From: Psittacicella hinzii
GTDB lineage: Bacteria > Pseudomonadota > Gammaproteobacteria > Enterobacterales > Psittacicellaceae
Assembly: GCF_003585885.1 (NCBI RefSeq)
Contig: NZ_NRHC01000094.1
Span: 1-40,596, forward strand
DNA length: 40,596 nucleotides
Reading direction: 5' to 3'
Notes under the pieces: model-generated
The model's database searches: none
The model's input: the letters and a program-made list of their open reading frames with translations, nothing else
What the model was told of the DNA's origin: nothing
Made by a program: the position numbers and the translations under genes
In this document: piece by piece, positions 11,841-40,596 of the stretch
Numbering within the stretch: the first letter of the stretch is position 1
Layout of the letters: each line of letters begins with the position of its first letter

Positions 11841-11856
11841 TTGTGATGAGGTGTTT

Positions 11857-15365: not shown

Positions 15366-15373
15366 GGATATTT

Positions 15374-23300: not shown

Positions 23301-25782
23301 TTAACTGTACTCCCGGCACGATATTTGCCGTTAGTTTAGGTTCTATGCTCTGCTTTCTAGCTTTGGCAATCTCGTCCTTATCAAAGATTTCCTCGAGTTG
23401 CTCTGGGAACATAAACATGTTCTCAATAGATTCTAGATCTACACCAAACTCTTCGATAATCTTGGTTAAAAGCAGTTTGCTTTTATCTGCCGTTAAGTAA
23501 TTGTCCGGATTGAGATCATTACCATGCTCATCTTTAAAACCGTGCATAAAGAGGAGATGGTAGAAAGCTTCCATTCTCTCTTCTTCGGTTACTAGTTGAG
23601 TAAAGCTATTGTCGTTAATGCTAGTATGCACCCCAACTTCTGGAGTAAAGCTAGCTCCGTCATCAAGGTTATATACTTGCTCTTTGTCAGCTTTACTTTT
23701 AGCTTTGCTTGCTTTTTTCTTGCTAGCTGAAGTTGTGCTTTCCTCTGAAGTTTTTGCAACTTGATCTTTGCTAGAGGTAGAAGTAGCGTCAGAGCTTGCT
23801 TTATCGCTAGATGTTTGACTATCAGCTTGGCTAGTTGCAAGAATTTGCCACGCATTGGTTCCTTGGTTAAGCTGCGGAGGCGCAATTAACGTAGGGTTAA
23901 AGTCATCAGCTCCGTTTTGGTTTTGAGCTTGACCTTGAGCTTGCTTAGTAGAGCTACCCTTACCTGCTTGTCCTAAAGCTGAGCTCTCTTTTTGTCCTTC
24001 GAGGGCAAAAAGAGACGCAAGGGCTTCTAAAGCACCGATTTCGATTGCTTCTTCTGTAGGAACAAACTGCGCATGTTGGGCGTCCTTAACAAGGAACTCT
24101 GGCACGAGGTATTTTGCCATGCTCGCATTTACGAGAACTGTACGATAGATAATTTGCTCGTAAGCTAGTGGGGTCGTATCTTCTAAGTGCACCGGTAAGT
24201 TAGTTGGTGTCACCGTATGGTCAGCCTGCATGAGGCGGTACTTTTCAAGAAGAATACGTTGTTTTGCACTAACAGTTAAGGCAACTGGCGCTGCTGGGTT
24301 TAAGTAAGAGTAAGAGCTACGTAAACTTGGGTGGTTATACTCCCCAAATAAACGTCCATACACAGCCACCATAAATGGGTTTACTAGGTAGTATGGTTGA
24401 TCAAACTTCCCAGTAGCTACTAAACTCGAGTCATAGTGACTCTCAAACATTTGTGAGAGACTAAAAGAGTTACTACGTCTTTTTACTTGCTCTGGGTCAA
24501 GATTGCTAATTGATCTTACACCTAGAGGAGCAATCCAGTTGAGATAGTGCTGATACTCCATCATGCGCACTAAGTTATTGCTGCGCTCTTGTTTTTTAGC
24601 ACTCTCAAGGGCTTTATGGTAAAGGGTTGGAATAGCGTCCGCTTGGTAGTGCTCAAGGTTTGCGGTTAAATTTTGGGCAAACTTAGCTAGCACCTCGGCG
24701 TAGGCAATACGCTGGGCGCGGGTTTTGTCTTTAGGAGACAGCGCGCGTTTAAGTTGACTAAGCTCTTTGCTTACTTGCTTATGAGCAAGTTGGAGTTGCT
24801 CTTGGAGTTGACCATAAGCTTGGGCATTTAACCATGCTGAATAAGGTGTTTGACTATAGTTAGTAAACGGAAAAACTTCAGCTACAACTGCAGGGATTTC
24901 TTTATAATTACTTACTAATGGATTTTTTAACGTTGCGAGCTCCATAAAGTAGAGGTAAGAAGCAAGATCTTTGAATGCAGTGTTTTTCTGTTCTATCCCC
25001 ATGAGGTAAACATCGTTTTCTTTTAACCCCGTATGTGAGAGGTAAGAAGCAATGCTTGCTGCGCCTTTGTCTTGCAACTCTTTATAAAAGAGTTGAGAGA
25101 CTGCTTCATTGCCTCCACTGCGTAGTGGGTAAAAAGAATAGTAGAAGCGATCTTTCGCCAGTGCTTTCGCAAGAATTTTTTTTGCTTCAGGATTACTTTC
25201 CTCAATAAACTGTACTTGGCTTCTTTGCTCCCAACTTTGGTTATGGGCAAAGTTTTTAGTTACAGATTTATAGTTTAAGTAGAGGTCAAGGTCAGCGTTA
25301 AAGAGCTTAGGGGCAACCGCTGGATTTGGTTGAGCAGGGGTATCTGTTGGTGAAGCAAGCGCGGGGATCTTGGCAATGTTATTTGCATTACGCGCTGGGT
25401 AGTTTTGGTAAAGTTCCTCGTAAACTAAACGATAGACACTAAAGTTATATAAAGCGTCTTTTAAGTTAGGGAAAGGGATAACTTTACGGGTTGCTTCTTT
25501 AAACAGAGGTAGGTTACCCATTAGTTTGGTGTCAAAAACTTCCTGCGGAAATAGGGGATTTGCCGAGTAGTTTAACTCTGGGTTACTGCGATATCTATCT
25601 ATCCCCATTTCACTAAGAAATGGCATAGAGTGCAGACGCCAGTTAGCAATGCTTTGATAGGTATAAGCATGCTTAAAATCATGTAAGTCTATGCGTGGAG
25701 ATAACTCTTCCTGCAAGTGCTGGAAAGAGTTCTCTCCATGAAAAGCATAGACTTGTAATGGTTGTCTTTTGTCCTTTGTCAT
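17392..25782 (-). CDS. Giant protein A (2796 aa), function unknown
   Basis: A single uninterrupted frame of 2796 codons from ATG at 25782; a TTG two codons upstream (25788) is possible but no ribosome site supports either. I do not recognise a domain. There is no signal peptide and no evident transmembrane segment, so it is probably cytoplasmic. Globular-looking stretches rich in Leu, Tyr, Gln and Lys are separated by low-complexity inserts: Ser/Thr/Gln/Lys-rich at about 600-705, an acidic run at about 895-915 (encoded by a 12-bp DNA repeat near 23045-23090), Ser/Asn/Gln-rich at about 955-985, Lys/Ser-rich at about 1635-1655 and Asp/Asn-rich at about 2485-2520. No Walker, nuclease, methyltransferase or protease motif was seen. 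An A8 run (minus strand, 25176-25183) near codon 200 could slip. It follows lpxH but is separated from it by a terminator, so it has its own promoter or depends on read-through. Confidence 0.85.
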   Translation of the reverse strand: MTKDKRQPLQVYAFHGENSFQHLQEELSPRIDLHDFKHAYTYQSIANWRLHSMPFLSEMGIDRYRSNPELNYSANPLFPQEVFDTKLMGNLPLFKEATRKVIPFPNLKDALYNFSVYRLVYEELYQNYPARNANNIAKIPALASPTDTPAQPNPAVAPKLFNADLDLYLNYKSVTKNFAHNQSWEQRSQVQFIEESNPEAKKILAKALAKDRFYYSFYPLRSGGNEAVSQLFYKELQDKGAASIASYLSHTGLKENDVYLMGIEQKNTAFKDLASYLYFMELATLKNPLVSNYKEIPAVVAEVFPFTNYSQTPYSAWLNAQAYGQLQEQLQLAHKQVSKELSQLKRALSPKDKTRAQRIAYAEVLAKFAQNLTANLEHYQADAIPTLYHKALESAKKQERSNNLVRMMEYQHYLNWIAPLGVRSISNLDPEQVKRRSNSFSLSQMFESHYDSSLVATGKFDQPYYLVNPFMVAVYGRLFGEYNHPSLRSSYSYLNPAAPVALTVSAKQRILLEKYRLMQADHTVTPTNLPVHLEDTTPLAYEQIIYRTVLVNASMAKYLVPEFLVKDAQHAQFVPTEEAIEIGALEALASLFALEGQKESSALGQAGKGSSTKQAQGQAQNQNGADDFNPTLIAPPQLNQGTNAWQILATSQADSQTSSDKASSDATSTSSKDQVAKTSEESTTSASKKKASKAKSKADKEQVYNLDDGASFTPEVGVHTSINDNSFTQLVTEEERMEAFYHLLFMHGFKDEHGNDLNPDNYLTADKSKLLLTKIIEEFGVDLESIENMFMFPEQLEEIFDKDEIAKARKQSIEPKLTANIVPGVQLITAFAMSTDPEVVRAILPGVQESDYLGLSEEATEEVASKAHMRSLESFTKAPAEPADKSKAPASFAAHVNGEDDEEDDEEDDEAEELAISPEEFEFLRKAFEEALALKRSGEASAVEEVEREVEADEIDSSNTNTQASHSQVSNSQANDDKVATVADPAHDLIKEMEREESLPYPSMEDKLALTQVNFARRPLDLWLETRSDLTWDFFRAKNRLKRQTHVLSYNALGFTAYNISTNALNSIEYPYLRTGNAYQLQAVTHQQLLEIYRSLPVRQSYESLLMKTLYNRTRYVSLNMSLYEFRQEAHPGNVSYFVRVTLENINQALKVEPHLATLLPELTPLYLDVFAQEVTTSKASKFKAKTLANKTSRLDKLEQAQPDLKRRFKSKAVLQSYNLPTNSWQYIASATLDPQVYTYDADPLMNMLEHRNNIELFAYEPLPLVRNASDVFTNYQHLEEFYERLHLDLTLTNSVFLSSKTSTDGFFTSLGQELDDKLSFISERVREAFALPKLGEQYSAREGNLVLVPIPVAHQATQLEKDLESPLQKWRVPLTAQDYQEALKQYNSASKLLTYAVNPSTLELWFIYHLLGQDNLDFIQTNLDKINLSLFLKALEPAVQEAYELSSKELKRYQVSLGQMLPRIMPDLELEQALATLAEFDEKGMASMLERGRILAYREQVSLNQAQVQELAQEHNLTWLLTLTDKGVPHKLASLVKDLTAEQVEVAQTIIANLDGAALWQANLASKQDANLKAQEQAGTFLNPDSSVALEQAKGLEIKDVAGFSAYLSGGVKLAPSASYPLISMRAASKLTKVSSKEANKEASTSREASKELSFTNFAPASKELLAHPSYEQFALANAPALWRNLSKVLGKQTRQLLNSAKFQLEQSLTQSMFAPGKTTTEYALQWRQALIKQLQTKADTGLALRLFSQHPSAVFADSPNLYRPAVGYQGEDALVDGLFSRFNIFNPNKGQDEFKVPTLTGELDLNSAKAQLLYLWQQVGLKEHELEKILASSPLTTGLLNKASIEQGFANNFVAYLYFKIMPQLLATPLYNLELMEQQLNKALEFARRDLKLNRAAWLSLEYTIPEHLLRAYAHTAHVLTSPDQQAFATYLGYSLDQEEHIVSQNNASLVEVNQHLNNAYYHLAYNYQSVNRDAMTSRSITLTLDPGYLLFKGVLRGDRYLTRRGKDIYFELETQTQQPYVILAPEALEQQKFEASEHIVPVPNEFLPAKLLEAALVHDFIYPFTPQDRLPRTVPEYNTFMHKAGFAYQPALGAYNLYWLAMNKMTLLEQNDTLPRFYRLPLYMPFAVHNIKLPDPSWPLMLNVPQIGSLQKLWYQDHEFVIHGKKGRPLPIKFDYSPVTSYAQDLTPTSLFKSYGRELFKLLLSRTYAEREIARNLIRINASTQLEQAVYLPSRPLHLVYATSEESSFMGRDHSELIATFKAHAQLMVQKVFNAVMQQSDALQEYKDLPPAVTSLVTLPFESLSHWRVTLTKAPFYSVQFESDKLRDFISREVTQAPVIAPPRSQDLVNDRLHWLLFQQSLDTLSGEQLAKIHHKLELAGLYQENTDKSYIAYERELNFHHIGVDYSRLTPVYFYREKLLQDLAQEELAQDYKAEVKAQFDTLNTVFKMQEHRNQEAVPNLSRLTPAQVQELFGQAEHEQSTRTIIDVDANASVNTNVNGKVNKDDFDNDCFDDVDFDSLERERQASLAYPSETYQEFAFDKQSLAPTLGWKGEPTSEELITLGTVTSQHYQFPLPVDKVTIGNNNSKYLQRIRGNTFNLGKVNPDLKALLAKFNQQGEVSLTEIYQATGLKPYWKFNLKDLSQSYHLTAQVLMHNLSKVNQEHQQLPLCDLVELFKHLYYKFTELKVMLVADQRLFEAVVASDPSLTKAPYLYLVADKEQVKAWDKDNRNKNPFPAEFIYLAHNHQASEICNSLALAREQSLDLLETTDWYPYFAYLRKVYPSNNKGNKSK

Positions 25783-25854
25783 AAACAATTAATCAATAAA
25801 TATTCTTGGCTTCAAAGGGATTTTTAAGCCTTACTATATTTTAACAATTTTTTA

Positions 25855-25884
25855 TAAAAAAAAGAGTACCAAATTAGGTACTCT
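25855..25884 (-). terminator. Terminator of lpxH, overlapping its stop codon
   Basis: On the minus strand AGAGTACC/GGTACTCT (8 bp, 25884-25877 with 25870-25863) has a 6-nt loop and is followed by eight T. The first stem base pairs fall within the TAG stop codon of lpxH. Confidence 0.88.
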
Positions 25885-27598
25885 ATAAGTTTTCCGGATC
25901 AATAAATGCAAATGTAAAACGGTTAATTGCTTTGCCTTCTTTAAAGGCTTCTTGTACAAGTAAAGCTACGGATGCACGACTTTGTGGTTGCGTGCAAAGG
26001 GCAATAGCTTTTTCCATACGTTCTTGCAAATCTTGAGGATTGCAAGTTTGTACACGAAGAGGTTCTTGGGTGTTAGTGCCTGTGCTTGCATTGGCATTAG
26101 TATCTGCACCAGTAGTTACACCTGAACCTGCATTTGCACTTGCACCTGTATTTTGTGCAGAAGCAACCTCTGGAGGATTAGTTTGAGAGCTTGCTTGCGC
26201 ATTAGTTTGTGAACTAGCTTGCGAAGTTGTTGCACTCTTGCTCTTTGGACAAGTTGCTTGGGCACTTTCTTGCTCTAGGTCATCTTGGGCAGTTTCTTGC
26301 CAAGCGCGAAGCGCTTGCTCTTGACGAGCTTGTTGCTTATCCAAATCTGCTTGACTTAACCAGTCCGCCATAGAAATGCCATAAAAGCTTGAGTTGTTTT
26401 CTTGCGGATCAAGCACAAAAAAGTCTTGATTTAGGAGCTGTAACTTATCCCAAGTGGTTAGGGCTTGCTCTTGTTCTTTAACCCCACGTAGGTTGTTACT
26501 TGCAGTAAAAGTACGAATTTTACCCACCGGAATTGGGTAAAGAGAATCTACTTCACTGTAAGCCTCACGGTCTCGCATTTTTGCCAGATTACCAAAATCA
26601 ATAAACTCATGGATATTTTGGTAAGAATGGATTTGCGGTGCTCTTTGTCCATAAGCTTGTGACCAATTGAGCATACGCTGGCGATGGATATGACCGTAGA
26701 TCATGAGGTTAGCTTGGCTCATATGCGCTAAGTAAGCAGTGTAGTTTAACTCTATGTCAGCCATATCTAGGGTACTTGCTTGCCCTAGAGAAGCTTGCTC
26801 TTGGTTGCTTAGGCTTGCAGAATTACTAGAGTTGTTAGCGTTAATTGTAGCTGTTAACAGCTCTTCTTGCTGTTTACGTTTAGCTTTCGAAGCTTGTGAG
26901 ATACGATTAGCGATTGCTTTTACTAAAAAAGTAGGAATGATCTTTTCGATAAAGCGAACAAAACCAGAACGGACAACACGGCGATATCTTTGGTAAGCTT
27001 CGTCAGCTAAACAAAGGTTATCTCCATGACAGAGCCAGAGGCGTAAGCCCTCTGGGTCTTGCGCTTGATCTAAAGTTTTACTCTTGTATCTTAGTTCATT
27101 AAGTAAGCTATCACGATTTGTAAAGGTATAGTTACTTAGAGTTGCAACTTGAGGATCAAGTTGGGTAAAAGTTGCAAGAGTTGCTTTGTCTCCCTCTTGG
27201 TTAATAGAGAAGTCGATTAAAGTATTTTCTGGTAAGTAAATAGCACCTATGGCTTTACAAAATTTCTTCCCGAGTAAGAAATCACGGTTACCTACCATAA
27301 AGAAGATCTCGCCTCCAGCTTCTTTAAACGCCAGAAGTTTAGCTTGGATAGGTTTAAACCAGTCAGGAATAAAATCCCCAATCCCTAGTGCTAAAAAATC
27401 CCCAAGGATAAAGAGACGAATGTGTGCTTGTAAACGGTGGTCAATGGCAAGCTGGGTTAGCTTGTCCACAAAGTTAGTAAAGAGTTGTTCTAACTCATTG
27501 GTACTTGCATCAAGATGCAGGTCACTAACAAAGAAGTTGTAGAGGGTCAGGTCATCACCTTCAATGCGAGTTAGAAATGGTAGAGTGTAATTGTCCAT
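25883..27598 (-). CDS. lpxH: LpxH-type UDP-2,3-diacylglucosamine hydrolase with long insert and C-terminal tail
   Basis: LpxH cleaves UDP-2,3-diacylglucosamine to lipid X and UMP in lipid A synthesis at the inner membrane. The calcineurin-like metal site is complete: D26 and H28 (SDLHLD), D67 (LGDF), N104 in GNRDFLLGKKF (a very LpxH-like block), H191 in CHGDNLCLADEAYQRYR, and H303/H305 in GHIHRQ. The helical cap region KAIANRISQASKAKRKQ also fits. The protein has 571 residues, while LpxH is usually about 240. The extra length comes from an insert at about 131-187 before the HGD motif, an Asn/Ser/Gln insert at about 253-280, and a tail from about 345 that includes Ala/Ser/Thr/Gln/Asn-rich low complexity (about 450-520) before an ordered-looking end (QERMEKAIALC...FTFAFIDPENL). 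The reading frame is intact. No clear ribosome site. A relaxed-specificity metallophosphoesterase is the alternative. Confidence 0.82.
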   Translation of the reverse strand: MDNYTLPFLTRIEGDDLTLYNFFVSDLHLDASTNELEQLFTNFVDKLTQLAIDHRLQAHIRLFILGDFLALGIGDFIPDWFKPIQAKLLAFKEAGGEIFFMVGNRDFLLGKKFCKAIGAIYLPENTLIDFSINQEGDKATLATFTQLDPQVATLSNYTFTNRDSLLNELRYKSKTLDQAQDPEGLRLWLCHGDNLCLADEAYQRYRRVVRSGFVRFIEKIIPTFLVKAIANRISQASKAKRKQQEELLTATINANNSSNSASLSNQEQASLGQASTLDMADIELNYTAYLAHMSQANLMIYGHIHRQRMLNWSQAYGQRAPQIHSYQNIHEFIDFGNLAKMRDREAYSEVDSLYPIPVGKIRTFTASNNLRGVKEQEQALTTWDKLQLLNQDFFVLDPQENNSSFYGISMADWLSQADLDKQQARQEQALRAWQETAQDDLEQESAQATCPKSKSATTSQASSQTNAQASSQTNPPEVASAQNTGASANAGSGVTTGADTNANASTGTNTQEPLRVQTCNPQDLQERMEKAIALCTQPQSRASVALLVQEAFKEGKAINRFTFAFIDPENL

Positions 27599-27753
27599 TG
27601 TTTGTCTGTGTTGATTGGAAAGTTAAAATTAGGGGATGGTAATAATAGGATAGCATAAAGGTCGGAGGTTTAGGGGAATTTAGTTGGAAGTTATTATAGG
27701 AGGCTAGAGGTTATAGTAGGAGGTTGTAGCGTGGGGTTAGAGAGATCGGCAGG

Positions 27754-27779
27754 AAAAAACCGAAACTAGGCTTCGGTTT
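27754..27779 (-). terminator. Minus-strand terminator upstream of lpxH
   Basis: On the minus strand AAACCGAA/TTCGGTTT (27779-27772 with 27764-27757), with a 7-nt loop, is followed by TTT (six T in all, three of them in the stem). It lies 156 bp before the lpxH start, so a minus-strand RNA from around 27800-27950 would end here, or lpxH transcription would be attenuated here. Confidence 0.75.
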
Positions 27780-27844
27780 ATCAGGTTAGTTTATAGCAAT
27801 TAGAATGAGCGCCTTGTAAAATTAGCGCGCAAATAGAAAACAAC

Positions 27845-27939
27845 GTATCGCTTTTCAAAAACAGTATGTGTCTGCCGAATCTCTCTATTATAAAACTGGC
27901 GTGTGGCACCAGCTTTCCCTTTGAATTGAAAAGCGATAC
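27845..27939. other. 95-bp inverted-repeat element between two minus-strand terminators
   Basis: GTATCGCTTTTCAA (27845-27858) is exactly complementary to TTGAAAAGCGATAC (27926-27939). The interior has a further small hairpin (CTGG...CCAG near 27896-27912) and a TATAAT on the minus strand. It has no open frame and no obvious target duplication. It lies between the hairpins at 27946-27980 and 27754-27779. It may be a small structured RNA, a leader element of lpxH, or a MITE remnant. Confidence 0.6.
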
Positions 27940-27945
27940 TAAGGG

Positions 27946-27980
27946 GTAAAAACCATTATGAGGTTAAACTCGTAATGGTT
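27946..27980 (-). terminator. Probable minus-strand terminator
   Basis: A 12-bp stem AACCATTATGAG/CTCGTAATGGTT (27951-27962 with 27969-27980), with one wobble and a 6-nt loop, is followed on the minus strand by TTTTTACC (the first two T belong to the stem). It would end a transcript coming from the structured region at 28000-30000. Confidence 0.55.
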
Positions 27981-28273
27981 AAATTTAGGAGATAACAAAT
28001 GTTTAAGAACGTTTATAGTTTTTTGTCGGTACTTAACCAACGGAGGAGGAAGTTAAAGGTTTGGCTTGTAGATTCAAACTTTTTAACTGTTTAGGGAAAG
28101 AGTTTAAGTAAAAAATAAAAAGAACGGATCTTCTAAAAACTTAGAAAAAAGGTAAGGGGGAATTCTTAAATATCTTTTACAAAAAAGGTTGCTTTGTTAG
28201 TAATTATTAGTTGCTTGTAGGCAACTAGTAGTAGTCGTTAAAATTTGGCTTTGTTAATTTTTTTAGTAACTTT

Positions 28274-28375
28274 AAGTCGGAGCTTTATTTAAAAATAGTC
28301 GGAGCTTTTATTACTTTGATAAGTTTGGAGCTTTAAAAAGTTTTGCTGGAGCTTTAAAAGTTTTGCTGGAGGTCT
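28274..28375. repeat. Tandem AGTCGGAGCTTTA-type repeats
   Basis: AGTCGGAGCTTTA (28275), AGTCGGAGCTTTTA (28297), AGTTTGGAGCTTTAAAA (28321) and two copies of a 20-bp GCTGGAGCTTTAAAAGTTTT-type unit follow one another. The motif resembles the degenerate repeat at 1950-2118. Confidence 0.7.
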
Positions 28376-28487
28376 AGTGACTTTTTAAGTAGTCGATTTT
28401 AGTTATTTAAATAAGCTTAAAGTTTACTAGTTTTAAATTCTTAGTAGGTTTTATAAAAGGTTTTAAAGCAGATTTGTTGCCTTGTTT

Positions 28488-29990
28488 TATCAGTTTTGGA
28501 CTGATTTATAAATTTGGGCTGTTTTATCCTTATGTCCTTTGCTGTTTTAGCTTATTAGAGGTAAAAAAGGGTTAATATTCTTTTTCTTTTCCCTTTAATA
28601 AAACCAGAAATAAAAAACATAAAGGGAGAAAGAGGAAAGAATATTAACTCTAAGAATTACATTTTTAGGACAGGGATACATGACTAAGTTTAAGAGGATT
28701 AAGTAGCGAGCTGCCACAAGCTACAAGAGAGTTTTGAGTTAATCCTGCTTAAACTTAGAAAGTACAAAATGCATACTCATAGCACCTATTTTTATAACGT
28801 GGAATTTTTTCTTCAAAGAGAATCTCTACTAAAGAAAAAGAATGAGTAATATGCCAGATTCTACCTCTTCCTCACAAATATTTCAGCCAAGTCTATGGAG
28901 GAAAAGATAGTTGAACTACAAGTATGCATATTTTAGCTTTGCCAAAAAGCTAAAATATGAAAACTTAGTGATTTTTCAATTTGAAAAAAATAAAAAAATC
29001 TGAGAGAAATAACAGTAGACTAATTTGCTTATTAAATGTTAGGCTACATCATTTAATAACACAACATTAGTACATTAAAAGAAAATCATCCCCGAATTTA
29101 CTTTTAACTGACAGCTTTCGGTCAGAGGCTTATTTGCTCTATTATGTTACTTTATAGGAAGAGGAATTACAAAGTAACGCGGAAACATTTTTATTCCTGT
29201 GGAAGAGAGTAAAAACTGAAAGAGATCCTTTCGTCAATGCCAGAGAAAATTTTTCTCTGCAGTGGCACATTGATGAACTGTACAGAGGAGATAGTACAGG
29301 TAGTCAAAAAAGGCTATTTTCTGTTTCTCTTAATAAAGCAAAATGGTAAAAGCTATCCTAGCTGTTACAACTCTCGGATTTAAACTGAGAGTATCTTAGT
29401 TGTTTTAAGTAGGAATGTATAAAGAACTTTGTATGTGATTGGTCTTTATGCTTCTTAATATAAAAGGGAGTTCACAACTAAGAAAACAGATGGTTTTGAC
29501 AAAACTTACTAAATGTTTAGTTGAGACAAATGAGTTTATTTATAAAAAAGATTAGTCTAAAAATTAAATTAATAAAGTGCCATTAAAAAGATAAAGAACG
29601 CAATTATTAAATTAAATATTATTTTTAATCTAAACATATTATAAAACAGAAAAAATAAAAATTATTAAAAAATGATAAAATAGAAGATATAAATTTATCA
29701 AACTGTGAAGTAGATCACACTTTTGTCTGGAGCTCAACAAAAAGAATGAGATATTTCCTAGGGAAAAGACATATAGCTTTAATATCCTCATGGTTTCGTA
29801 GGTTAAAACGAAAGTTTAACTTAGATTTACTCATATCTATATAAGTATAATCAAAAAGTTTATTATCTTTTGACTTAGAGATTATTGTGATTTATTGATA
29901 TAAATAAAAATAGCATTATCTACCTTTGTTATATAAATAATTAAAAAATTGAGAAATTAACTATATTTTTCGTAGATCGTTTATTTTTAT
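28488..29990. ncRNA. Candidate large structured RNA: about 1.5 kb of consecutive stem-loops
   Basis: There is no coding frame, but complementary arms follow each other almost without gaps: 28488-28504; 28571-28648 (arms of about 28); 28684-28758 (19 bp, one bulge, inner GTAGC/GCTAC); 28771-28854 (GCATA-CTCAT arms with two nested stems); 28861-28910; 28927-28959 (perfect 14 bp); 28972-28988; 29019-29071 (ACTAAT outside a perfect 10-bp stem); 29075-29107; 29108-29125; 29146-29178; 29234-29273; 29278-29299; 29367-29403; 29419-29449; 29475-29523; 29747-29790 (nested). After about 29530 the sequence is so AT-rich that weak stems are expected by chance. Strand is undetermined: the minus-strand terminator at 27946-27980 favours minus, but this is not proof. 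It does not show the conserved cores of RNase P RNA, tmRNA, SRP RNA or 6S RNA. A graveyard of small palindromic elements is the main alternative. Confidence 0.4.
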
Positions 29991-30074
29991 TTAGACGAGA
30001 GTGATAACAAATTACCAAGAAAGTGGCAGGTTGAGGATTGAGTAAAACTAGCTTTAAACTAGTCAAGAAAAAGG

Positions 30075-30350
30075 AAAGCTAGACCTAAAATCGTAATTTA
30101 AGGCAAAGGCGTTAAAAATAAAGCTAGACCTAAAATAGCAAGTTAAGGCAAAGGCTTAAAAAGAAAGCTGGGCTAAAAATAGCAAGTTAAGGCAAAGGCT
30201 TAAAAAGAAAGCTGGGCTAAAAATAGTAATTTAAGACAAAGTCGTAAAAAGAAAGCTAGGCTAAGAATAGTAATTTGGGGTACAGCTCAGGTAAAGGCGT
30301 AAAAAATAAAGCTTGACCAAAAATAGTAAGTTAAAGTAAAAGTGTAGATG
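30075..30350. repeat. 44-bp tandem repeat, six units, upstream of thiI
   Basis: Units begin with AAAGCT at 30075, 30120, 30164, 30208, 30252 and 30308, so the period is 44-45 bp and the last interval is 56. The core is AAAGCTNGRCTAAAAATAG then TAAGTTAAGGCAAAGGC. The third and fourth copies are nearly identical. The units are contiguous, without unique spacers, and the period is not a multiple of 3. Confidence 0.9.
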
Positions 30351-30522
30351 GTTAAGTAAAGTCCTCCTCATTAAAGGCAAACTGCGCAAATCCTACCTCA
30401 AAGCTACATGCTCCAGCACAAGGTTTAACTTGCTCTTCAATTCATAATTCTCCCCTCCCTTTCTCCTGTGATTTCTTCGCTAAATTAGTCCAAATTCCCG
30501 CAAATTACATCAAAAAAGACGG

Positions 30523-30528
30523 TATAAT
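30523..30528 (+). promoter_or_regulatory. Probable -10 element for thiI
   Basis: A perfect TATAAT lies 63 bp before the thiI start. The -35 region 17 bp upstream (GCAAAT) is poor, so an activator or a relaxed promoter is implied. Confidence 0.45.
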
Positions 30529-30590
30529 ATAGCAACTTGGAGACTAAAGTTTTGCTCCAATAATTTAGTATTAAAATTCACCGGTATATT

Positions 30591-32069
30591 ATGTATTTAC
30601 GAATTAAACTACATCCTGAGATTGTGACTAAGTCAGACTCAGTACGTAAACGTTTTGTAAAGATCCTTTCTTCGAACATTAGACAAAGTTTAAAAACTTA
30701 CAACCTTGATTGTTCAATTCAACCTAACTGGGATAATATCCTAGTTAGAGCCAAATGCGAACCTACACTCTACCCTGTATTTGTCCAAATCCTCCGTCAA
30801 GTACCAGGTATCCAAAAGATCCTCAAAATCAAACTTGTTCCTTTTACTGACATGCATCAACTCTTTGAAGAAGTTTTAGAGTTAAACCGTGAGCGTTTAC
30901 AAAATAAAACTTTCTGCGTGCGTGTAAAACGTAAAGGTAAGCATGAAGTGCGTTCAATTGATATTGAGCGTTATGTTGGTGGTGGGTTACGCCAACATAT
31001 CGAGGGTAGTAAAGTACAACTAACTAATCCTCAAGAAACCGTACAAATTGAAATCGAAAACGATCAAGCTTTCTTAATTGAGCATGTTTTCTCTGGTTTA
31101 GGTGGCTTCCCAATTGGAACCCAAGACGCAGTATTGTCAATGATCTCTGGGGGTTATGACTCTGCGGTTTCTTCTTACCAAATGATTCGTCGTGGTTGTA
31201 AACTGCACTACCTCTTCTTTAACCTTGGTGGTCAAGAGCACGAGTATTACGTAAAACGTATTGCGCGTAAAATTTGGCAAGGTTATTCAGCTTCACACAA
31301 TGTGAAGTTTGTAACCGTAGACTTCTACGACATTATGATCAATATTGCCAACGCAGTAAGCGATGGCTATACCGGCGTTTGTTTAAAACGCATGTTCTAC
31401 CGTGTTGCCAATGCGATCGCTCAACGCTTACGCATTGATGGTTTAGTAACCGGTGAAGCTTTAGGGCAAGTGAGCTCGCAAACGTTAAAGAATCTTGCAG
31501 TAATTGAACAGGTAAGTGAGCGTCCAATTCTTCGTCCATTAATTGCCATGGACAAAGAAGAGATTATTCACTTAGCGCAACAAATTCAAACTGCTGAGAT
31601 CTCTGCACGTGTCCAAGAGTTCTGTGGCATTATGGGGAAAAAACCTACCATTGCTGCTGACGTTAAACAGCTTGAACAAGAAGAAGCTAAACTTGATATC
31701 GACGCCTTAGTAGCAAAAGCTATTGAGACTGCCAAAGTTGAAAACATGCGTGAACTTGCACAGCAAGATCTAGCGCATATCGAAGCAACGCAATTAACTT
31801 TTGTTTCTCAACTATACAGCGACAAAGATGTAATCATTGACGTACGTGACCAAGAGACTTTTGAAAATGCAAATAACCCTTGGCCTGTACCGGCGATTAA
31901 CATTCCATTCTTCCACTTAGTTGACAAGTTTGGTGACCTTGACCAAAGTAAACGCTATGTTCTTTACTGTACTAAAGGCTTATTAAGCCGTATCCAAGCA
32001 GTTAACCTTATTGAGAACGGCTATAAAAACGTTGTAGTTTTAAGTAAAGATTACAAGTTTGAACAATAG
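30591..32069 (+). CDS. thiI: tRNA 4-thiouridine synthase / thiamine sulfurtransferase ThiI
   Basis: ThiI adenylates U8 of tRNA and transfers sulfur to it, and in bacteria with the rhodanese domain it also feeds sulfur to the ThiS carrier for the thiamine thiazole. The protein has 492 residues, close to the E. coli length. Order: N-terminal ferredoxin-like and THUMP region (1 to about 165), PP-loop SGGYDSAVSS with S186-D190, the adenylation domain with C345 in EFCGIMGKKPT, and a rhodanese domain (about 395-492) with the active-site C460 in LYCTKG. Both redox cysteines are thus present. The start ATG has no obvious Shine-Dalgarno, but the first residues (MYLRIKLHPEIVTKS) match the family N-terminus. 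It is followed 135 bp later by rsmE on the same strand. Confidence 0.97.
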   Translation: MYLRIKLHPEIVTKSDSVRKRFVKILSSNIRQSLKTYNLDCSIQPNWDNILVRAKCEPTLYPVFVQILRQVPGIQKILKIKLVPFTDMHQLFEEVLELNRERLQNKTFCVRVKRKGKHEVRSIDIERYVGGGLRQHIEGSKVQLTNPQETVQIEIENDQAFLIEHVFSGLGGFPIGTQDAVLSMISGGYDSAVSSYQMIRRGCKLHYLFFNLGGQEHEYYVKRIARKIWQGYSASHNVKFVTVDFYDIMINIANAVSDGYTGVCLKRMFYRVANAIAQRLRIDGLVTGEALGQVSSQTLKNLAVIEQVSERPILRPLIAMDKEEIIHLAQQIQTAEISARVQEFCGIMGKKPTIAADVKQLEQEEAKLDIDALVAKAIETAKVENMRELAQQDLAHIEATQLTFVSQLYSDKDVIIDVRDQETFENANNPWPVPAINIPFFHLVDKFGDLDQSKRYVLYCTKGLLSRIQAVNLIENGYKNVVVLSKDYKFEQ

Positions 32070-32204: not shown

Positions 32205-32954
32205 ATGCGTCTATATCGAACTTACCATCCACAAGTGTTAGAGGTAACTTTACCTTATACGCTTGAACTTGAAGAGGGCTCGTTTAACCACTTATGTAAA
32301 GTTCTCCGTCTTAAAGACGGAGAAACCATTCACGTCGTTGATGGCTCGGGTGGACATTACGTAGGAATGCTTGTAAACGTGAGTAAACGTAGTGCCCAAG
32401 TTGACCTGCAAGAATACGTGCAAGCTACCAACGAATCACCTCTTCATCTTCACTTAGTCCAAGGTATCTCTCGTGGTGACCGTATGGACCTCACTATTCA
32501 AAAAGCGGTTGAGCTGGGAGTTAAAGAGATTACTCCAGTATTTACCGAGAGATGTGAAGTACGCCTAAGTGGCGAGCGTTTGGAGAAAAAAATGCAACGC
32601 TGGCGTGAGATTATTATCTCAGCTTGCTTACAAAGTTATCGCGATACTATTCCGCAGTTAAATCCGGCAATAGATCTCGCAGATTTTTATAAACAAATTG
32701 CAACAAACGATCATAGTCAAGAATTGTTTGTGAACCTCAATCCTTTTGCTGGACAAAGACTAGGAGAAGTTAGTGGCTCGTACACTCGTATTAATCTTCT
32801 CATAGGTTCAGAGGGAGGATTGTCAGATAAAGAAATTGCTGATGCAACTAAAGTTGGCTTTAGTGACTATAACCTTGGTCCGCGTGTACTACGCACTGAG
32901 ACCGCAGGTTTAGCAGCCATCTCGATCTTGCAAGCAGTATTAGGTGACCTTTAA
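32205..32954 (+). CDS. rsmE: 16S rRNA (uracil1498-N3)-methyltransferase RsmE
   Basis: RsmE methylates N3 of U1498 in 16S rRNA of the 30S subunit with S-adenosylmethionine. The 249-residue length is normal. The N-terminal PUA-like domain has the pattern MRLYRTYHP and HLCKVLRLKDGETIHVVDG. The SPOUT knot domain shows QGISRGDRMDLTIQKAVELG, TERCEVRL, the SAM-binding loop IGSEGG (G201-G205) and LGPRVLRTETAGLAAI near residues 224-239, all characteristic. It follows thiI on the same strand and precedes giant gene B by 61 bp, so these three may be co-transcribed. AAAG directly before the ATG is a weak ribosome site. Confidence 0.97.
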   Translation: MRLYRTYHPQVLEVTLPYTLELEEGSFNHLCKVLRLKDGETIHVVDGSGGHYVGMLVNVSKRSAQVDLQEYVQATNESPLHLHLVQGISRGDRMDLTIQKAVELGVKEITPVFTERCEVRLSGERLEKKMQRWREIIISACLQSYRDTIPQLNPAIDLADFYKQIATNDHSQELFVNLNPFAGQRLGEVSGSYTRINLLIGSEGGLSDKEIADATKVGFSDYNLGPRVLRTETAGLAAISILQAVLGDL

Positions 32955-32966
32955 TCGGTAGCATTA

Positions 32967-32998
32967 GCTTAGGTGAAGTTATCTAACTTCAACTAAGC
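32967..32998. other. Hairpin between rsmE and giant gene B
   Basis: GCTTAGGTGAAGTT pairs with AACTTCAACTAAGC (13 of 14 pairs) around ATCT. No T tract follows, so read-through into the downstream gene is plausible. Confidence 0.6.
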
Positions 32999-33015
32999 GC
33001 TAATCTAAGGATAAT

Positions 33016-36000
33016 ATGCGTAACTACTTAAATAAGTATTTTGTCTTTAATTACAAGGCAAGTGACTTTGCTTTACCAAGTGACAAGTACTATTTAATTT
33101 TACATAGAGTAAAGCAACCGGACAGAGATGGCGAAGCGCCATCACTAAGCGATTATCTTGGCACTACCAGCCAAGACTATCGCACGTTTTTTGATAACCG
33201 TGCCGGGTATTTAGCACTTGATCTGGGACAAAAAACTGAACATACTTTTTCGCTGAAATTAGATCCAGAGCTAGCTAAGCTCGCTGGAACTGATTTAAAT
33301 AACATCCCCGTTTATTACGGGGGTGAAGTAGCTGATCTTGGCTTACTAATGTATGACAATGCTAATCAGCATACTTACTACCTTGACCGTAAGCACACTG
33401 GACGCTTTTTAACTGAGATCAAACAGTTCTTTGTTGATTACCAAGACGACTTACGTGCAGTTAACCAAGCAAGTGCGGATTTACGCGCGAGCTACCAAGA
33501 GTCTCTTGAGCGTGACTACGCTGCAGAGACCATGGAAAAGCTTAAGCTCAAGAATGACTATAGCGCTAAGTTAGCACAAAACAAACTAAAATCTTTACAA
33601 CAAGGTTTACGTTTTTCCTGGCGAGAAGAGCCAGCGCAAGTAGTGCTGCGAGCTTCTTATTCGGAAGAAGAGGTGGACAACCTCATTGATGAGGTTGAAG
33701 ATGAAGGGATTTTTGGGACAAGTGCAAAGGTAAGTAACAATAGTGAAAGATTACGTGCTTATCTTGAGAAATCTGACCAAGAGTTCAATGACTTCTTAGC
33801 TGCTAAGAAATTCGAAGTAGCGCAAATGCTAGGCGAAGATGATCCTGCAGGGCAAGGTAAACTAGACGAACAAATTGGTCAAGACTGGTTTAATCGTGCA
33901 ATCATTGCAATTACTGACAAGAAAACTCGTGACTATGACTGGTACGAGCAATCTCAACTTGATAAAGAAGCGCAAGAAAAGCATGGTAAACGCCTTGAGC
34001 GCGCTTTACACAAAATGATCGAGCCAGGTCCTCCTACTTTAATGCAAGAGCTTGAAGTGTACCCATCGGGTGATGAAGTTTATCCATCTCTTCATCCAGA
34101 GCTGGGAAAAATCATGGCTCTGCAAAAAGCAACTTTAGAGCCATGTACACAGTATGACGAGCTCATTAATTACTTTGAGTTTGAGTACAAAGAACATGTA
34201 GCTAATGAGTTAGATAAAGTTGAAGCGCAGATTCAAAAGCAACTTCGTAAGCAAAACCACAGAGTTGATTTTGTTGATGTAATTCTTAAGGACAAAGACT
34301 ATAGTCAGTCTCTAACCGAGTTATATCCCTTTGACCTGAGCCATAGCTATGAAAAGCAACTAGTTTTCTTAACAGACCTACAAGCAGTTATTCAAAGTCT
34401 TCCTCCAAGAAAAGGCTATGTTAATGTCCACAAGCATGCTTGTCGTGAGTTAGAGAAAATTGCCGCTAGCTTTTGGAAGAAAAACGTTAACGACAAAGAG
34501 TTCCAAACTCTGGTGCAAAAATTCTTATCTTCACTGCAAAGTGCTATTAGCTCAGACAGCTTTGTCCATCGAATGGCAACAGACGATAGCTTAAAAGAGT
34601 GGAAAAGAGTTTACAAAAAAGAGTTTATTAGCCCAGAGAAATTAGCGCATAAACTGCAAATTCCGTACCAACAGTGGTTTACCGCGCCAACAGAACTAAC
34701 AACTTGGGATTACCTTGGAGCTCTGTTAGGGGCAGATAGTCGTGTCGATAATGCCTTTACCGCTCTGACTAAAGCATTTGTCCGTAAGAAAAAGCTTGAT
34801 GAAAGCGATTGGCATATGCTAACTCCAGGACATCTGCAAGGCTACTTTGCTGAGATCATGGGTCTTGACTATATTGAAGATCTAGATCTCTACTACCGTG
34901 TCCTTGGTAGCGTTGCTCCAGGCAGAGAAGCCAAAGTTTTTATCAACAATTTAAAAGTTTTACAGCTCAAACTAGAAAAACTGTTTTTACGCAAATACAA
35001 GTTTAGACGTCAGTTGTTTGCCAATGTTGGTAAAAGCCAATTCCAACAAGCTGAAAGTATTAATGAAAGTGCGCTTAGCCTCCACACAGGGAAAGCTACG
35101 CCAAAATATACTTCTAAAGCCTTTAAACAACTGCTTGAAGAACTTGAAGGACCTTTAGCTCAAGCTGGTACAGAAGCAGGCGAACAAGCTGGTAATCAAG
35201 CGGGTGAACAAGCAGGCAAGCAAGCTGGTAAAGAAATAGAAAGTGCTGCCCAACTACTTAATGCCAAAATCGACAAAGAAAACTTTGTTGAGCATCAAGT
35301 GTTTACCGAGATCTTCAAAGAGATCCTTGAAGAAAAAGGGGATATAGATCCGCGAGCTATGGCAAATGTGCATAACATTTACCATTCTTATCTTGCGGAC
35401 AAAGAAAACACGCCAGAGTTTGCTTTCTATATCGACTATATTACCCTGCAGTTTGCTTTAGGTTACTTAAGTATCGATGAATACTTTTTAGCGCGTTTAC
35501 GCGGCTTAGAAGTAATGCATGCACTGCGCAAAGTAAACCGTGAAGTGCGTCAACTCGAGCAAAATTACGACATTCCAGATCTTGGTAGTGTGGTAATGCA
35601 AAAATATGCTGCCCAACTCGAAGATTACGCCACTGACACTAACTCAATCATTACTTTCCCGCAAGAGCAACTCGAAGTGCTCAGCAACGCTTACCTTGAT
35701 GAACGTGTAAAACCACTAGTAAACACGGTTTATCAAACTTTTAAAGCAGCGGGGTTAATTGGTAAAACCTTGGCAGAGGCGGTTAAGCTGGTAAGTGCAC
35801 CAGAGGTTGCAGATAAAGAGCCAGAGTTTACCTTTGGTGGGGTAAAAGTAAAACTGTCAGCACTTGTTAAGGACAAACTAGTTAACGCAGACGAGGTTGA
35901 AGAGAACTACCATATCCCGCAAAGTGCAGAGTTTAGTCAAGAGCGTCAAGCGCTTGAAAGCCAAGCGCAAGCTGAGCGTAAGTACAGCAAGGGCAATAGT

Positions 36001-39000
36001 AAATTCAACCATGTTCATGTTGAAAAACAACTAGCAACCTTAAATACTAAGCGTAAAGAAGTTATTGACTTTAACTTTATTGTGCAAAATGTGCAAAAAC
36101 TGTTAACGCTGCAAGCCGAGCATCAGTTTGCGTGCAAACTGGCAGCGCGCAGTGCCCGTGCATGGCATGAGTTACGTAAAGACAAAACTAAGTTCTTAAT
36201 TCCAGAGAACTATGCTTTACCTCTAGTATTTGACAAGTATCGTTTAGCTGACCTAGTTAACTTCGATGATTTAAAACGCTTAGAGTTTAAAATCTACGTG
36301 GGGACTGATATTGTTTTCTATCGTCCAGTATCACAAGAAGATAGTGCGCGCGTAGGACGCGCGAACAATAAGTTCTCGTACACGCGTGTTTTACCTAAGC
36401 TTCTAGCCGTACCTATGTACGAGCGTGCTCTTTTTGACAATAATCTGTCAGAACTTGCTAATTATCAAGTGACCGAAGAGCCAAAACCTCTTAGTCTGGT
36501 AGTTAACCTGCAAGATAATGTCTTTGCTAAGTTCTTTGCAAGTAGTATCTGGCAACATGAGCAACCTACTTATTACAAAGTACAAGTAGACTACTCGCTT
36601 GAACCAGCAAAAGATTATGGAGCTCAAGCAAATATTCCTTGGGTTTTACTGCACCAGTTAATTGAGAAAGCAACGCCAACACACGAGGGACATATTGCTA
36701 TCTATAGATTCTTGATAGATATGCACTTCAACAGCAAAGAGAAGCATGAGAAGTTAGGAGTTCCGCATTTTAACCAAAGCTTAAAAGCTAAAGAAGCTAA
36801 AGAAGCTAAAGGCAAAGCTCCTGCAAGTAAAGCTAAACAAGCTAAAGGTAAACAGGCAGCTGCTACCCGTGAGTTTCCGTACCTTGGGAATAGCGAAGAA
36901 ATTAGTTATGCTGCTTTCTTCCAGCAAGCAATTATTCAGTATGCTGTACAGCATAAAATTCCATTTAAGCCGTACAAAACTGTAAGCACGGAAATCTTTG
37001 CCGAGCTCATGCGTAGCTTTACCCAACTTCTTACTCCGCATTTAAAAGAGTTAAATGAGAGAGTAGTACCAGTAAACTACCATGCCCAACTTGAACAGCT
37101 TGAAAAACTACTGCAAGCATTACAAGGGGAAGAGAGCCTAGAAGTTGATCCAGCTTACACTGTGGCTTATACCAAGGAAACTACCGCTATTTCGCCACCA
37201 AACTTTGCTGTGCCGAACTATGCAGAGTTAGCTTTTAATCAAGAGCGTGCAACGGGGCAGTTCCATGACTTAATGGCAGTGCTTTATATTGCCAATGATT
37301 ACAGTAACACTCGTAAACGCCTCAATAGTTGGGCAGTAAGACGTAATAGTAATCTCTTACGTAATAAAGAGCAGTTGTTGCAAAATGATAAAGAAGTGTG
37401 GATAAACTTCCGTCAAGCTTTTATGCGCGGTGGGGCTAAAGCCTATGCGCTTAGACAGCTCCTTGAAGGTAAAGAAAGTATTCTTCTTTCTGCAGCTGAC
37501 AGTAAGTTTAATTCCGAAGTTGGTAGTACACCAATCTTTGATCTGCAAGAGCGTGCCAATGACTTCTATGAAAAATCTTTTAAACTAGATAGCAGTAGAA
37601 AAAATAGTTTAAAAGAGTGCATTTCACAGGCAATGAGTGACTTTAACCTTGTGGTTAATGAACTCCTAGCGGTCAATGATTTTAGAGCAAGCGTAGATGA
37701 CTTCCTTGCGACCGTTAACCATGTTAACCTCGCAAAAATGCAGCACTACGCTGATGCTTACTTGTATTTACAAAATCCAGCCGCTGCGATTAAGCAAATT
37801 CTCACCGACTTTAAAGAGAAAAACAAAGAACGCTTAATTAAACTCAAAGTAATCAAACGTAACTTAAATCCAAAAGTTGATGCTTCAACTTTATATGTGG
37901 AGCAACAACAAAGCGCGATGATGCAAGAGGCGTTTGAGCTCGAGTTAGATTGGTGTAAAGATCTTGCACGCGTTTTAAGTGTAAGTCCTGGTACCCAAGT
38001 AATTAACCAGATCTTTGAAGAGGTAACGCCTCACTTCCATTTAAGTCTGCTTGAGTATGTTTACAAGTACATTCATCGTAATCGCAAAAGCTTAGAAACT
38101 GCCCAAGACCTCAAAAATGCGTGGCTTAAACGTACTAAACAAACGTTACAGCTACCAGCAGTTGAGGGTAATGTTTACGAGGGGCAAGTTGATTTTGACA
38201 AATACCAAGCGCTATTACAAGTTGTAGAGCAAGGTCAAGCCTTTATTCAAGGGAACCCTCTGGCTGCAAGTGTTTTAAATGTTACCGGTGCTAGTGGACA
38301 AGGTACTAAAGGTATTAAAGGGTCTAGTGGCAAAGGTACAAGCAAAGAGGGCGAGGGCAAAGAGTTAGCTCCACTTGAGCCTTTACCGCGCGTAAGTAGA
38401 CGTAAACGTGTAGAGATGACTTATCGTCAACGTGTTGAAGATGAGTTCTTTAAACAAACTCCAGCACGTGTATATCGTCGTATCTACAACGACGCTATGA
38501 ATAACCTCGATGACTTCTTATTAAAACAAGCAGTTAACGAGTTAAGCGACTACTATGAGCAAATTAAGTTCTCCGTGCGTAACTTCCGTAAGCTCAAATA
38601 CGAGCATGTGCGTAAAGTACTTGAAGATCCTGCGCTCTACCAACGCCTAGCTGCGCGCTATCCATTGCTCCCAGCTAAAGCGCTCATTGATCTTTTTGCC
38701 CGTCAGATAGTGCAACAAAAATTCCAGTTCCGCCGTTTAATTCGTATAAATGGCATTACCGGACGTAAAGGGGTTGACTATTACCACATGCATCAAGAGC
38801 AAGACTCTAAGCAAATAGATCTAATCCAAGATCTAGTTGGTGCTTGCTTTATCTTAAAAGCACGTGGTTTTACTCCACGCATGGCAGTAAACGGCATGCA
38901 CACTTTATCGCAAATGCTTGATGCTCGCATTGCTCGTAATAAAGAAAGAGACAATGCTAAGTATGAAGTTAAAGAACGTACCGATTATTCGGACGCAGAG

Positions 39001-40596
39001 CGTTTTAATCTGCGTACTAAGTTCTTGGCAGATAAAGAGTACAATCCGCTGGCAGATCAGGGCATGGTTATAGCTAACGATCGTCCATACTTTGCTTCTG
39101 AAGATGATTGTGAAGAGTTTGTTGACCATGTGGCTAAACAAGCACTCACAGGTCGCGAGGAAGAGCTAGATCCTGAACTAGCTGCGCGTTTACCGCAAGC
39201 TCTAGTGCATGAGGTTGAAGGTGTAATTCCAGAAGCAAATTCTTTATTTGACATCCTCGTGAGCGAAGCTAACGATCGTAACTTTGTCAACTACTCAATC
39301 CTTTCTCAAGAAGAAGAGATAGCTTTACGTAAAAAACTATACGCACGTATTGTTGAAGGTAACCTGCAAGATCTCTTTAAACTAGAAACTTGGGAAGAGA
39401 TCCAAATAGACAAAGCCAAAAAAGCTAGTCGCCAAGCTCTTGAGCAAAAACGTACTGCTTACTTTGCCCAAGTAGCAGAACAAAGACGTGCCATCCAGCA
39501 AGAAGCCCATGCCTTTTTACAATTAAAAGAGCAAGCTTCGCAAAAAACTCTGGATAAGGTTAAAGATGATACCCTAGCCCAAGGTAAACTCTCTGCAGAG
39601 CAAGTTTCGACTTTAACTCGTGAGCCTGGAATTAAACTACCTCCAGTTACGCATGAGGTTGGGGTTACCGAGTTATACGAGCTGGTAAGAATGGAGCAAG
39701 CGCTTGAAGCTCAGGTACAAGTAAATGAAACTAATAAATTTACTTTACCTAAACCGAGTTTACAAGATAAGTCTCTGAGCGAGCAAATCATGCAGGTCAA
39801 AGATCAAATTAATGAGTATCAAGAGTTATCTTTATACCAAAGAGATCTTGCTCTGCGTGCTACCGAAGCAAATCTAAGTAAACTTGGACGCTACCATGAG
39901 TTTGTTAAAGATGTCCCTAACCTTGACCTCTTTGATATCCTTTCTCCAGAAGCTGATCTTGTCGCTAAAGTGCAAGAGAAAATCCAAAAACTTGCACCAA
40001 AAGGTGCAACTGGAGCTAAAGTTGTTCCGGCGCCAATGGTGGGTTCTGCGGGACAATTGCCAGTGGTAAATCAGTATCTTGGAGTAATAGCTTCGGGAGA
40101 TAACTCTAGTCAAGATCTATCTAGCCAAGAGCTAACTGAGATGCTTAGCAAAGAGTTAGATCGACTTGCTAACAACTCAACCGGAGATGATGCGCACCTA
40201 AGCTCGAAGCAAACTTCAAGCAAAGGGCGTAATAGCCAAGCGCAAAGCAAAGGTAAACCTCAGCGTGGTTATCTCGGAGCGGTTAAAGGTGAGCTCTTTA
40301 AAATCCATTATCGTGGAACCGTTGACTTTGATTGGTACTATAACTTCTCTTTAAATAGAGAGAAAAGGTTTACTAATCAGGTAGAGCAATCGTTAGCTGA
40401 TACGATTTTTGAGTACTATTGGAATCTTGAGCAAGAAGCTGAAGTTGAACCTTTAAGTCAACAACAGCTAATTGAGATCTTTGACCGTATTGTGGGACAA
40501 AACTTAAATAGCCAAGAGGCTACCAAAGCAGAGGACAATACAGAAAAATCTCAAGCTCAAACTCAAGAACAAACTCAAGAGCAAACTCAAGAGCAA
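33016..40596 (+). CDS. Giant protein B, partial (at least 2527 aa), function unknown
   Basis: The frame opens at ATG 33016 after a good ribosome site (TAAGGA, four to five bases upstream) and is still open at the end of the window, 2527 codons later. I do not recognise any domain. It begins MRNYLNKYFVFNYKASDF, with no signal peptide, and no membrane segment was seen, so it is probably cytoplasmic. Residues about 145-200 look like a charged coiled coil. Much of the rest is helical, rich in Leu, Lys, Glu, Gln and Tyr. Low-complexity inserts occur at about 714-740 (EQAGNQAGEQAGKQAG), 1256-1285 (KAKEAKEAKGK), 1758-1783 (Gly/Lys/Ser), 2385-2416 (Ser/Gln/Lys) and from 2516 (TQEQ repeats) at the window edge. 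It shares size and style with giant protein A but I found no alignable segment. It starts 61 bp after rsmE, so it could be in a thiI-rsmE operon. Confidence 0.88.
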   Translation, partial: MRNYLNKYFVFNYKASDFALPSDKYYLILHRVKQPDRDGEAPSLSDYLGTTSQDYRTFFDNRAGYLALDLGQKTEHTFSLKLDPELAKLAGTDLNNIPVYYGGEVADLGLLMYDNANQHTYYLDRKHTGRFLTEIKQFFVDYQDDLRAVNQASADLRASYQESLERDYAAETMEKLKLKNDYSAKLAQNKLKSLQQGLRFSWREEPAQVVLRASYSEEEVDNLIDEVEDEGIFGTSAKVSNNSERLRAYLEKSDQEFNDFLAAKKFEVAQMLGEDDPAGQGKLDEQIGQDWFNRAIIAITDKKTRDYDWYEQSQLDKEAQEKHGKRLERALHKMIEPGPPTLMQELEVYPSGDEVYPSLHPELGKIMALQKATLEPCTQYDELINYFEFEYKEHVANELDKVEAQIQKQLRKQNHRVDFVDVILKDKDYSQSLTELYPFDLSHSYEKQLVFLTDLQAVIQSLPPRKGYVNVHKHACRELEKIAASFWKKNVNDKEFQTLVQKFLSSLQSAISSDSFVHRMATDDSLKEWKRVYKKEFISPEKLAHKLQIPYQQWFTAPTELTTWDYLGALLGADSRVDNAFTALTKAFVRKKKLDESDWHMLTPGHLQGYFAEIMGLDYIEDLDLYYRVLGSVAPGREAKVFINNLKVLQLKLEKLFLRKYKFRRQLFANVGKSQFQQAESINESALSLHTGKATPKYTSKAFKQLLEELEGPLAQAGTEAGEQAGNQAGEQAGKQAGKEIESAAQLLNAKIDKENFVEHQVFTEIFKEILEEKGDIDPRAMANVHNIYHSYLADKENTPEFAFYIDYITLQFALGYLSIDEYFLARLRGLEVMHALRKVNREVRQLEQNYDIPDLGSVVMQKYAAQLEDYATDTNSIITFPQEQLEVLSNAYLDERVKPLVNTVYQTFKAAGLIGKTLAEAVKLVSAPEVADKEPEFTFGGVKVKLSALVKDKLVNADEVEENYHIPQSAEFSQERQALESQAQAERKYSKGNSKFNHVHVEKQLATLNTKRKEVIDFNFIVQNVQKLLTLQAEHQFACKLAARSARAWHELRKDKTKFLIPENYALPLVFDKYRLADLVNFDDLKRLEFKIYVGTDIVFYRPVSQEDSARVGRANNKFSYTRVLPKLLAVPMYERALFDNNLSELANYQVTEEPKPLSLVVNLQDNVFAKFFASSIWQHEQPTYYKVQVDYSLEPAKDYGAQANIPWVLLHQLIEKATPTHEGHIAIYRFLIDMHFNSKEKHEKLGVPHFNQSLKAKEAKEAKGKAPASKAKQAKGKQAAATREFPYLGNSEEISYAAFFQQAIIQYAVQHKIPFKPYKTVSTEIFAELMRSFTQLLTPHLKELNERVVPVNYHAQLEQLEKLLQALQGEESLEVDPAYTVAYTKETTAISPPNFAVPNYAELAFNQERATGQFHDLMAVLYIANDYSNTRKRLNSWAVRRNSNLLRNKEQLLQNDKEVWINFRQAFMRGGAKAYALRQLLEGKESILLSAADSKFNSEVGSTPIFDLQERANDFYEKSFKLDSSRKNSLKECISQAMSDFNLVVNELLAVNDFRASVDDFLATVNHVNLAKMQHYADAYLYLQNPAAAIKQILTDFKEKNKERLIKLKVIKRNLNPKVDASTLYVEQQQSAMMQEAFELELDWCKDLARVLSVSPGTQVINQIFEEVTPHFHLSLLEYVYKYIHRNRKSLETAQDLKNAWLKRTKQTLQLPAVEGNVYEGQVDFDKYQALLQVVEQGQAFIQGNPLAASVLNVTGASGQGTKGIKGSSGKGTSKEGEGKELAPLEPLPRVSRRKRVEMTYRQRVEDEFFKQTPARVYRRIYNDAMNNLDDFLLKQAVNELSDYYEQIKFSVRNFRKLKYEHVRKVLEDPALYQRLAARYPLLPAKALIDLFARQIVQQKFQFRRLIRINGITGRKGVDYYHMHQEQDSKQIDLIQDLVGACFILKARGFTPRMAVNGMHTLSQMLDARIARNKERDNAKYEVKERTDYSDAERFNLRTKFLADKEYNPLADQGMVIANDRPYFASEDDCEEFVDHVAKQALTGREEELDPELAARLPQALVHEVEGVIPEANSLFDILVSEANDRNFVNYSILSQEEEIALRKKLYARIVEGNLQDLFKLETWEEIQIDKAKKASRQALEQKRTAYFAQVAEQRRAIQQEAHAFLQLKEQASQKTLDKVKDDTLAQGKLSAEQVSTLTREPGIKLPPVTHEVGVTELYELVRMEQALEAQVQVNETNKFTLPKPSLQDKSLSEQIMQVKDQINEYQELSLYQRDLALRATEANLSKLGRYHEFVKDVPNLDLFDILSPEADLVAKVQEKIQKLAPKGATGAKVVPAPMVGSAGQLPVVNQYLGVIASGDNSSQDLSSQELTEMLSKELDRLANNSTGDDAHLSSKQTSSKGRNSQAQSKGKPQRGYLGAVKGELFKIHYRGTVDFDWYYNFSLNREKRFTNQVEQSLADTIFEYYWNLEQEAEVEPLSQQQLIEIFDRIVGQNLNSQEATKAEDNTEKSQAQTQEQTQEQTQEQ

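Follow-up and report, generated by a model that had tools for sequence, protein, structure and literature searches.

A giant, fast-diverging gene behind thiI and rsmE in Psittacicella and its possible product, a cytoplasmic scaffold-type protein

Introduction

Giant bacterial proteins are chiefly surface proteins or assembly-line enzymes. The 40,596-nucleotide stretch analysed here (the window), from a Psittacicella genome (Pasteurellales, psittacine birds), ends in a reading frame of at least 2527 codons, named gene B, which lies directly behind two RNA-modification genes and resembles no protein that we could recognise. This raises the questions of whether B is a real gene, what kind of protein it would encode and whether it is related to a second giant gene, A, on the same contig. 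In the literature on the genus Psittacicella we found no paper dealing with these genes.

Results

Gene B is a genuine giant gene

Gene B starts with an ATG at position 33016 on the plus strand and runs to position 40596, the last base of the window, through 2527 codons without a stop (ORF listing). When the B DNA was shuffled 200 times, no run without a stop exceeded 173 codons, chance expectation being about 100-170, and the remaining five frames of the region contain 119-327 stops each. The window is the entire contig C157, so that the 3' end of B is cut by the assembly; the break falls within a 12-bp in-frame repeat coding QEQTQ (40542-40596, plus strand). A near-identical repeat terminates contigs C35 and C142, which were considered as the source of the B end and rejected, since what they encode are pieces of an oligopeptide ABC transporter ATPase (named by eye) and not of B. 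The halves of an ATPase of this kind (L006:2-889 and L007:3116-3868, both on the minus strand) are apparently linked via QEQTQEQ, with a break in the assembly at that place.

We compared B in four genomes, namely that of the window, P. gerlachiana EEAB3T1, P. hinzii 111 and P. melopsittaci B96_4. Orthologues occupy the same place in all three other genomes, and each genome has one B locus. The gene is complete in P. melopsittaci (2254 aa) and P. gerlachiana (2424 aa), while in P. hinzii 111 it comes in two pieces, of 1753 codons ending C24 and of 2184 codons ending C200. A 33-bp acidic repeat is common to these two contig ends, which overlap by 54 identical bases; from this we infer a protein of about 3.9k residues in total; the length of B within the genus would then range from about 2,250 to 3,900 aa. 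The stop-free frame, the shuffles and the orthologues thus bear out the first-pass annotation, which had described a frame of at least 2527 residues still open at the window edge.

Gene B is probably the last gene of an operon with thiI and rsmE

B is preceded by thiI (30591-32069, plus strand), which, judged by its sequence, codes for the tRNA 4-thiouridine synthase with a rhodanese-like end, and by rsmE (32205-32954, plus strand; Pfam PF04452), coding for the 16S rRNA m3U1498 methyltransferase. All four Psittacicella genomes examined have thiI, rsmE and B in this order on one strand, with gaps of 12-208 bp. In the window, rsmE and B are 61 bp apart, with CTAAGGATAAT in front of the ATG of B. 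This gap is widest in P. hinzii 111, at 208 bp, and P. melopsittaci and P. gerlachiana have one of about 13 bp each. The plus strand of the window's rsmE-B gap showed nothing resembling a terminator; this gap holds a stable RNA hairpin (32960-33000, plus strand; z -3.5) that has no U tract and did not appear when two of the orthologous gaps were folded. The locus thus has the marks of an operon (kept order, one strand, short gaps, no terminator) and, judging from order and spacing, B is probably co-transcribed with thiI, the likely first gene, and rsmE, in agreement with an operon with two RNA-modification genes as initially proposed. A link of B to rRNA or tRNA modification is suggested by gene order alone. 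In other families of Enterobacterales rsmE is followed by gshB, by a yqgE-like gene or by an unrelated gene, not by a B-like one (genes named by eye), and a derivation of B from these gshB/yqgE-like genes was rejected, as they are unrelated to it.

The window has several other features. Its coding density is low, and the interval between lpxH and thiI (27599-30590) comprises 3 kb without an ORF above 50 aa; a 44-bp tandem repeat lies there at 30069-30270, and the interval has no Rfam match. A tandem pair of similar chaperone-usher fimbrial operons is located at 4241-9346 and 11213-16426, and the contig starts (1-148) with about 21 copies of the heptamer CTAGAAA upstream of a gene for a DUF285 protein.

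Gene B has so far been found only in Psittacicella and diverges fast

Over its whole length B is 23-28% identical within the genus, when in the same genomes the identity is 80-87% for ThiI, 64-82% for RsmE, 51-57% for LpxH and 32-38% for RecC (the latter computed over parts of about 1,200 residues). Sequence searches of 55 order-level genomes returned no relative outside Psittacicella, and a profile search of 295 order-level and 369 class-level genomes returned no credible one. The few profile matches beyond the genus (E 1e-4 to 1e-2) are short, low-complexity or coiled-coil-like, and located in helical or interrupted stretches; they were treated as chance. Likewise, no B was found outside Psittacicella in GTDB contigs, and phages, plasmids and viral contigs gave no match, so that an origin of B in such elements was rejected. 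Comparison with Pfam, NCBIfam, PHROGs, PADLOC and PDB yielded nothing credible: SAS049, DUF5344, FliT, KorB, ESCRT-IIIB and LM2363 were all rejected as the family of B, the matches being short, confined to a single member or coiled-coil-like. B was hence rightly called unrecognised and fast-evolving in the first reading of this DNA and, in the genomes searched, it has been found so far only in Psittacicella.

The B protein has conserved ends and a variable middle

The divergence is unevenly spread along B. In window numbering, conserved blocks are found at residues 1-150, 801-850, 901-950, 1001-1150 and 1801-1850. Residues 1-140 form the best conserved block (33016-33435, plus strand), with 43-53% identity per 50-residue bin over residues 1-100 and 40% over 101-150; a weak prediction gives it mixed strands and then a long helix. 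The internal blocks, all on the plus strand, include QFALGYL...YFLARLRGLE at residues ~801-860 (35416-35595), VIDFNFI...LKRLEFKIYVG at residues ~1017-1150 (36064-36465) and MTYRQRVEDEFF at residues ~1801-1850 (38416-38565). Between the blocks lie species-specific in-frame inserts, such as a tandem repeat coding AGEQAGKQAG (35160-35231, plus strand) and a 9-bp repeat coding KAKEAKEAK (36777-36811, plus strand). The C-terminal ~290 aa are conserved in the three other genomes; in the second B piece of P. hinzii 111 only these last ~290 residues match the other genomes, and about 1,880 unmatched residues precede them. A C-terminal profile did not find this domain in the assembly of the window, some stretches of which read as N; since the B of the window is without the conserved C-terminal domain, it most likely continues beyond the contig edge.

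Such blocks bear on whether B is under constraint at all. Were it a weakly constrained relic, its frame would have survived by little beyond chance and by low purging in a host-bound lineage, as the 23-28% identity, the big unmatched middle in P. hinzii 111 and the low coding density nearby might suggest. Yet none of the four frames is interrupted over its 1,753 to 2,527 or more codons, and identity within the conserved blocks reaches about 50% despite the extent of divergence, which makes a relic extremely improbable, the least likely of the readings that we weighed.

We looked for indications of location and activity in the protein. No 19-residue stretch of the window B exceeds a Kyte-Doolittle value of 1.3, no membrane helix is apparent, and no signal peptide is seen, as judged from the N-terminal sequence. 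The B copies have no catalytic motif in common among those looked for (Walker A, HExxH, GxSxG). An SMC/MukB- or RecB-like ATPase was considered and rejected, as a Walker A pattern occurs in only two of the four copies. In the first half of B, 72% of the invariant residues are hydrophobic, aromatic or Gly. AlphaFold2 models reached a mean pLDDT of 36.9 for residues 1-1195 and 45.1 for residues 1-207, below useful confidence; they show a mixed N-terminal part followed by nearly all helices and, because both values are low, the helices and domains are to be read as suggestions only.

These results also speak to the idea that B is a surface or host-directed protein of a bird-associated bacterium, for example an adhesin or a large exported effector under diversifying selection. 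Divergence is fast, the length changes are driven by repeats, the genus is host-associated and the neighbourhood contains fimbrial operons and DUF285 surface proteins. However, B displays no signal peptide, membrane segment, known repeat or export, toxin or anchor domain, its N-terminus is the best conserved part, and it shares its likely operon with housekeeping RNA genes; moreover RecC, which is clearly cytoplasmic, diverges nearly as fast. Altogether, we consider a surface or exported B quite improbable.

Other Psittacicella proteins are inflated as well

Inserts and growth in length are general in Psittacicella. RecD has 1254 aa (L060:14924-18685) and FtsK 1656 aa (L054:3610-8577), the RecC frames count 1467-1704 aa (L073-L076), and LpxH has 456-584 aa across the genus versus about 250, the window copy (25883-27598) having 571 aa. 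The RecC model is matched only at E 1e-7 to 1e-17. We also noted a 1878-aa frame (L052:9359-14992) whose glycosyltransferase family 25 (GT25) domain is confined to residues 1622-1741, near the C-terminal end, the protein having no Pfam match elsewhere.

Because the genus has demonstrably inflated other proteins, the main rival explanation derives B from an ordinary gammaproteobacterial protein of old standing that was enlarged by inserts, diverged past recognition and still does its ancestral job. RecD, FtsK, RecC and LpxH have been lengthened in just this way, RecC matches its model weakly, and its identity within the genus comes close to that of B. Nevertheless, these four proteins are recognised by their own families and B credibly by none, no B-like gene follows rsmE in the other Enterobacterales families (named by eye, as above), and the ancestor would have to be very long already or to have grown more than two-fold. 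We therefore regard this explanation as serious, if somewhat unlikely.

A common family of genes A and B finds no support

Gene A (17392-25788, minus strand) lies downstream of lpxH. It is also confined to Psittacicella but diverges more slowly than B (39-42% identity). Parts of A are kept particularly well, with identity peaking at 69% per 100 residues around residues 1201-1300, and yet it has no known relative; of the two proteins it would be the more suitable for structure prediction. RecC was rejected as the identity of A or B, being located elsewhere in the genome.

The first-pass annotation, while stating that no segment of the two aligns by eye, had suggested that A and B are either one fast-evolving family or proteins of common function, on account of a shared composition and shared inserts. 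The lack of alignment was confirmed by sequence and by profile-profile comparison, in which hhalign gave no similarity between A and B (probability 0.1%, E 0.46). The likeness in composition and inserts also stands, but it is not specific: the composition distance is 0.087 between A and B, 0.070 between B and RecD, 0.079 between B and the GT25 protein and 0.076 between A and RecD, other large proteins of this genome come equally near, and inserts are found in LpxH, RecC, RecD and FtsK too. A and B lie within 8 kb of each other in three of the four genomes. P. hinzii 111 carries B alone, an outcome named in advance as speaking against the pair: A is absent from this genome as searched throughout and behind lpxH, where an unrelated convergent gene takes its usual place, although the draft assembly could hide A elsewhere. 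The pair is thus not obligatory. That both genes are giant, Cys-poor, genus-restricted and mostly less than 8 kb apart would fit a single fast-evolving family or obligate partners; with unlike profiles, a composition common to RecD and the GT25 protein, the slower divergence of A and a genome with B and without A, we hold this to be very improbable, and the claim of one family or common function is not sustained.

Discussion

We tentatively favour, as the best explanation of the whole, that B encodes a lineage-specific cytoplasmic scaffold-type protein. According to this proposal, B would be a single-copy, vertically inherited gene of Psittacicella only, translated as the last gene of the thiI-rsmE-B operon, and its product a giant soluble protein that remains in the cytoplasm. 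Connectors, helical for the most part and free to expand, would link the end domains and internal blocks and may lengthen and shorten via in-frame tandem repeats. Rather than catalysing a reaction, B would then serve as a scaffold or tether that holds partners by its ends and blocks and tolerates change in its connectors. Kept ends and islands, growing connectors and the lack of an enzyme or export signature fit a soluble scaffold better than an enzyme or a surface protein; an enzyme that has diverged and retains few fixed residues could look like B, given four sequences.

Comparison with known systems places B apart from its closest analogues. Like Giant1-5 of Apilactobacillus kunkeei, which are reported to be giant extracellular surface proteins (PMC12863079), and like large adhesins, B comprises thousands of residues, is restricted to a lineage and varies in length. 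Those proteins are extracellular, whereas B, encoded behind housekeeping genes, lacks a signal peptide and a membrane segment. B shares with RecC, RecD, FtsK and LpxH of Psittacicella the genome, the inflation by inserts and a similar composition, and with RecC the fast divergence, but those proteins are recognised by their families and B is not. Gene A resembles B as a giant, soluble, Cys-poor protein of the same genus, and differs in having no sequence or profile similarity to it, in its place behind lpxH, in its slower divergence and in its absence from P. hinzii 111.

What makes B unusual is that an intact giant without export signals has been kept beside housekeeping genes though only about a quarter of its residues are alike. 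B may even be the first of a novel class of giant proteins of the bacterial cytoplasm, serving one genus as a scaffold tied to its RNA-modification operon, with ends that are kept and connectors that vary freely in length (2.2k-3.9k residues), but this we consider unlikely. The interest of B lies mainly in its being part of the proteome-wide trend to inflation in Psittacicella that also includes RecC, RecD, FtsK and LpxH, and this trend could serve to study how proteins lengthen by inserts and repeats in a host-bound lineage.
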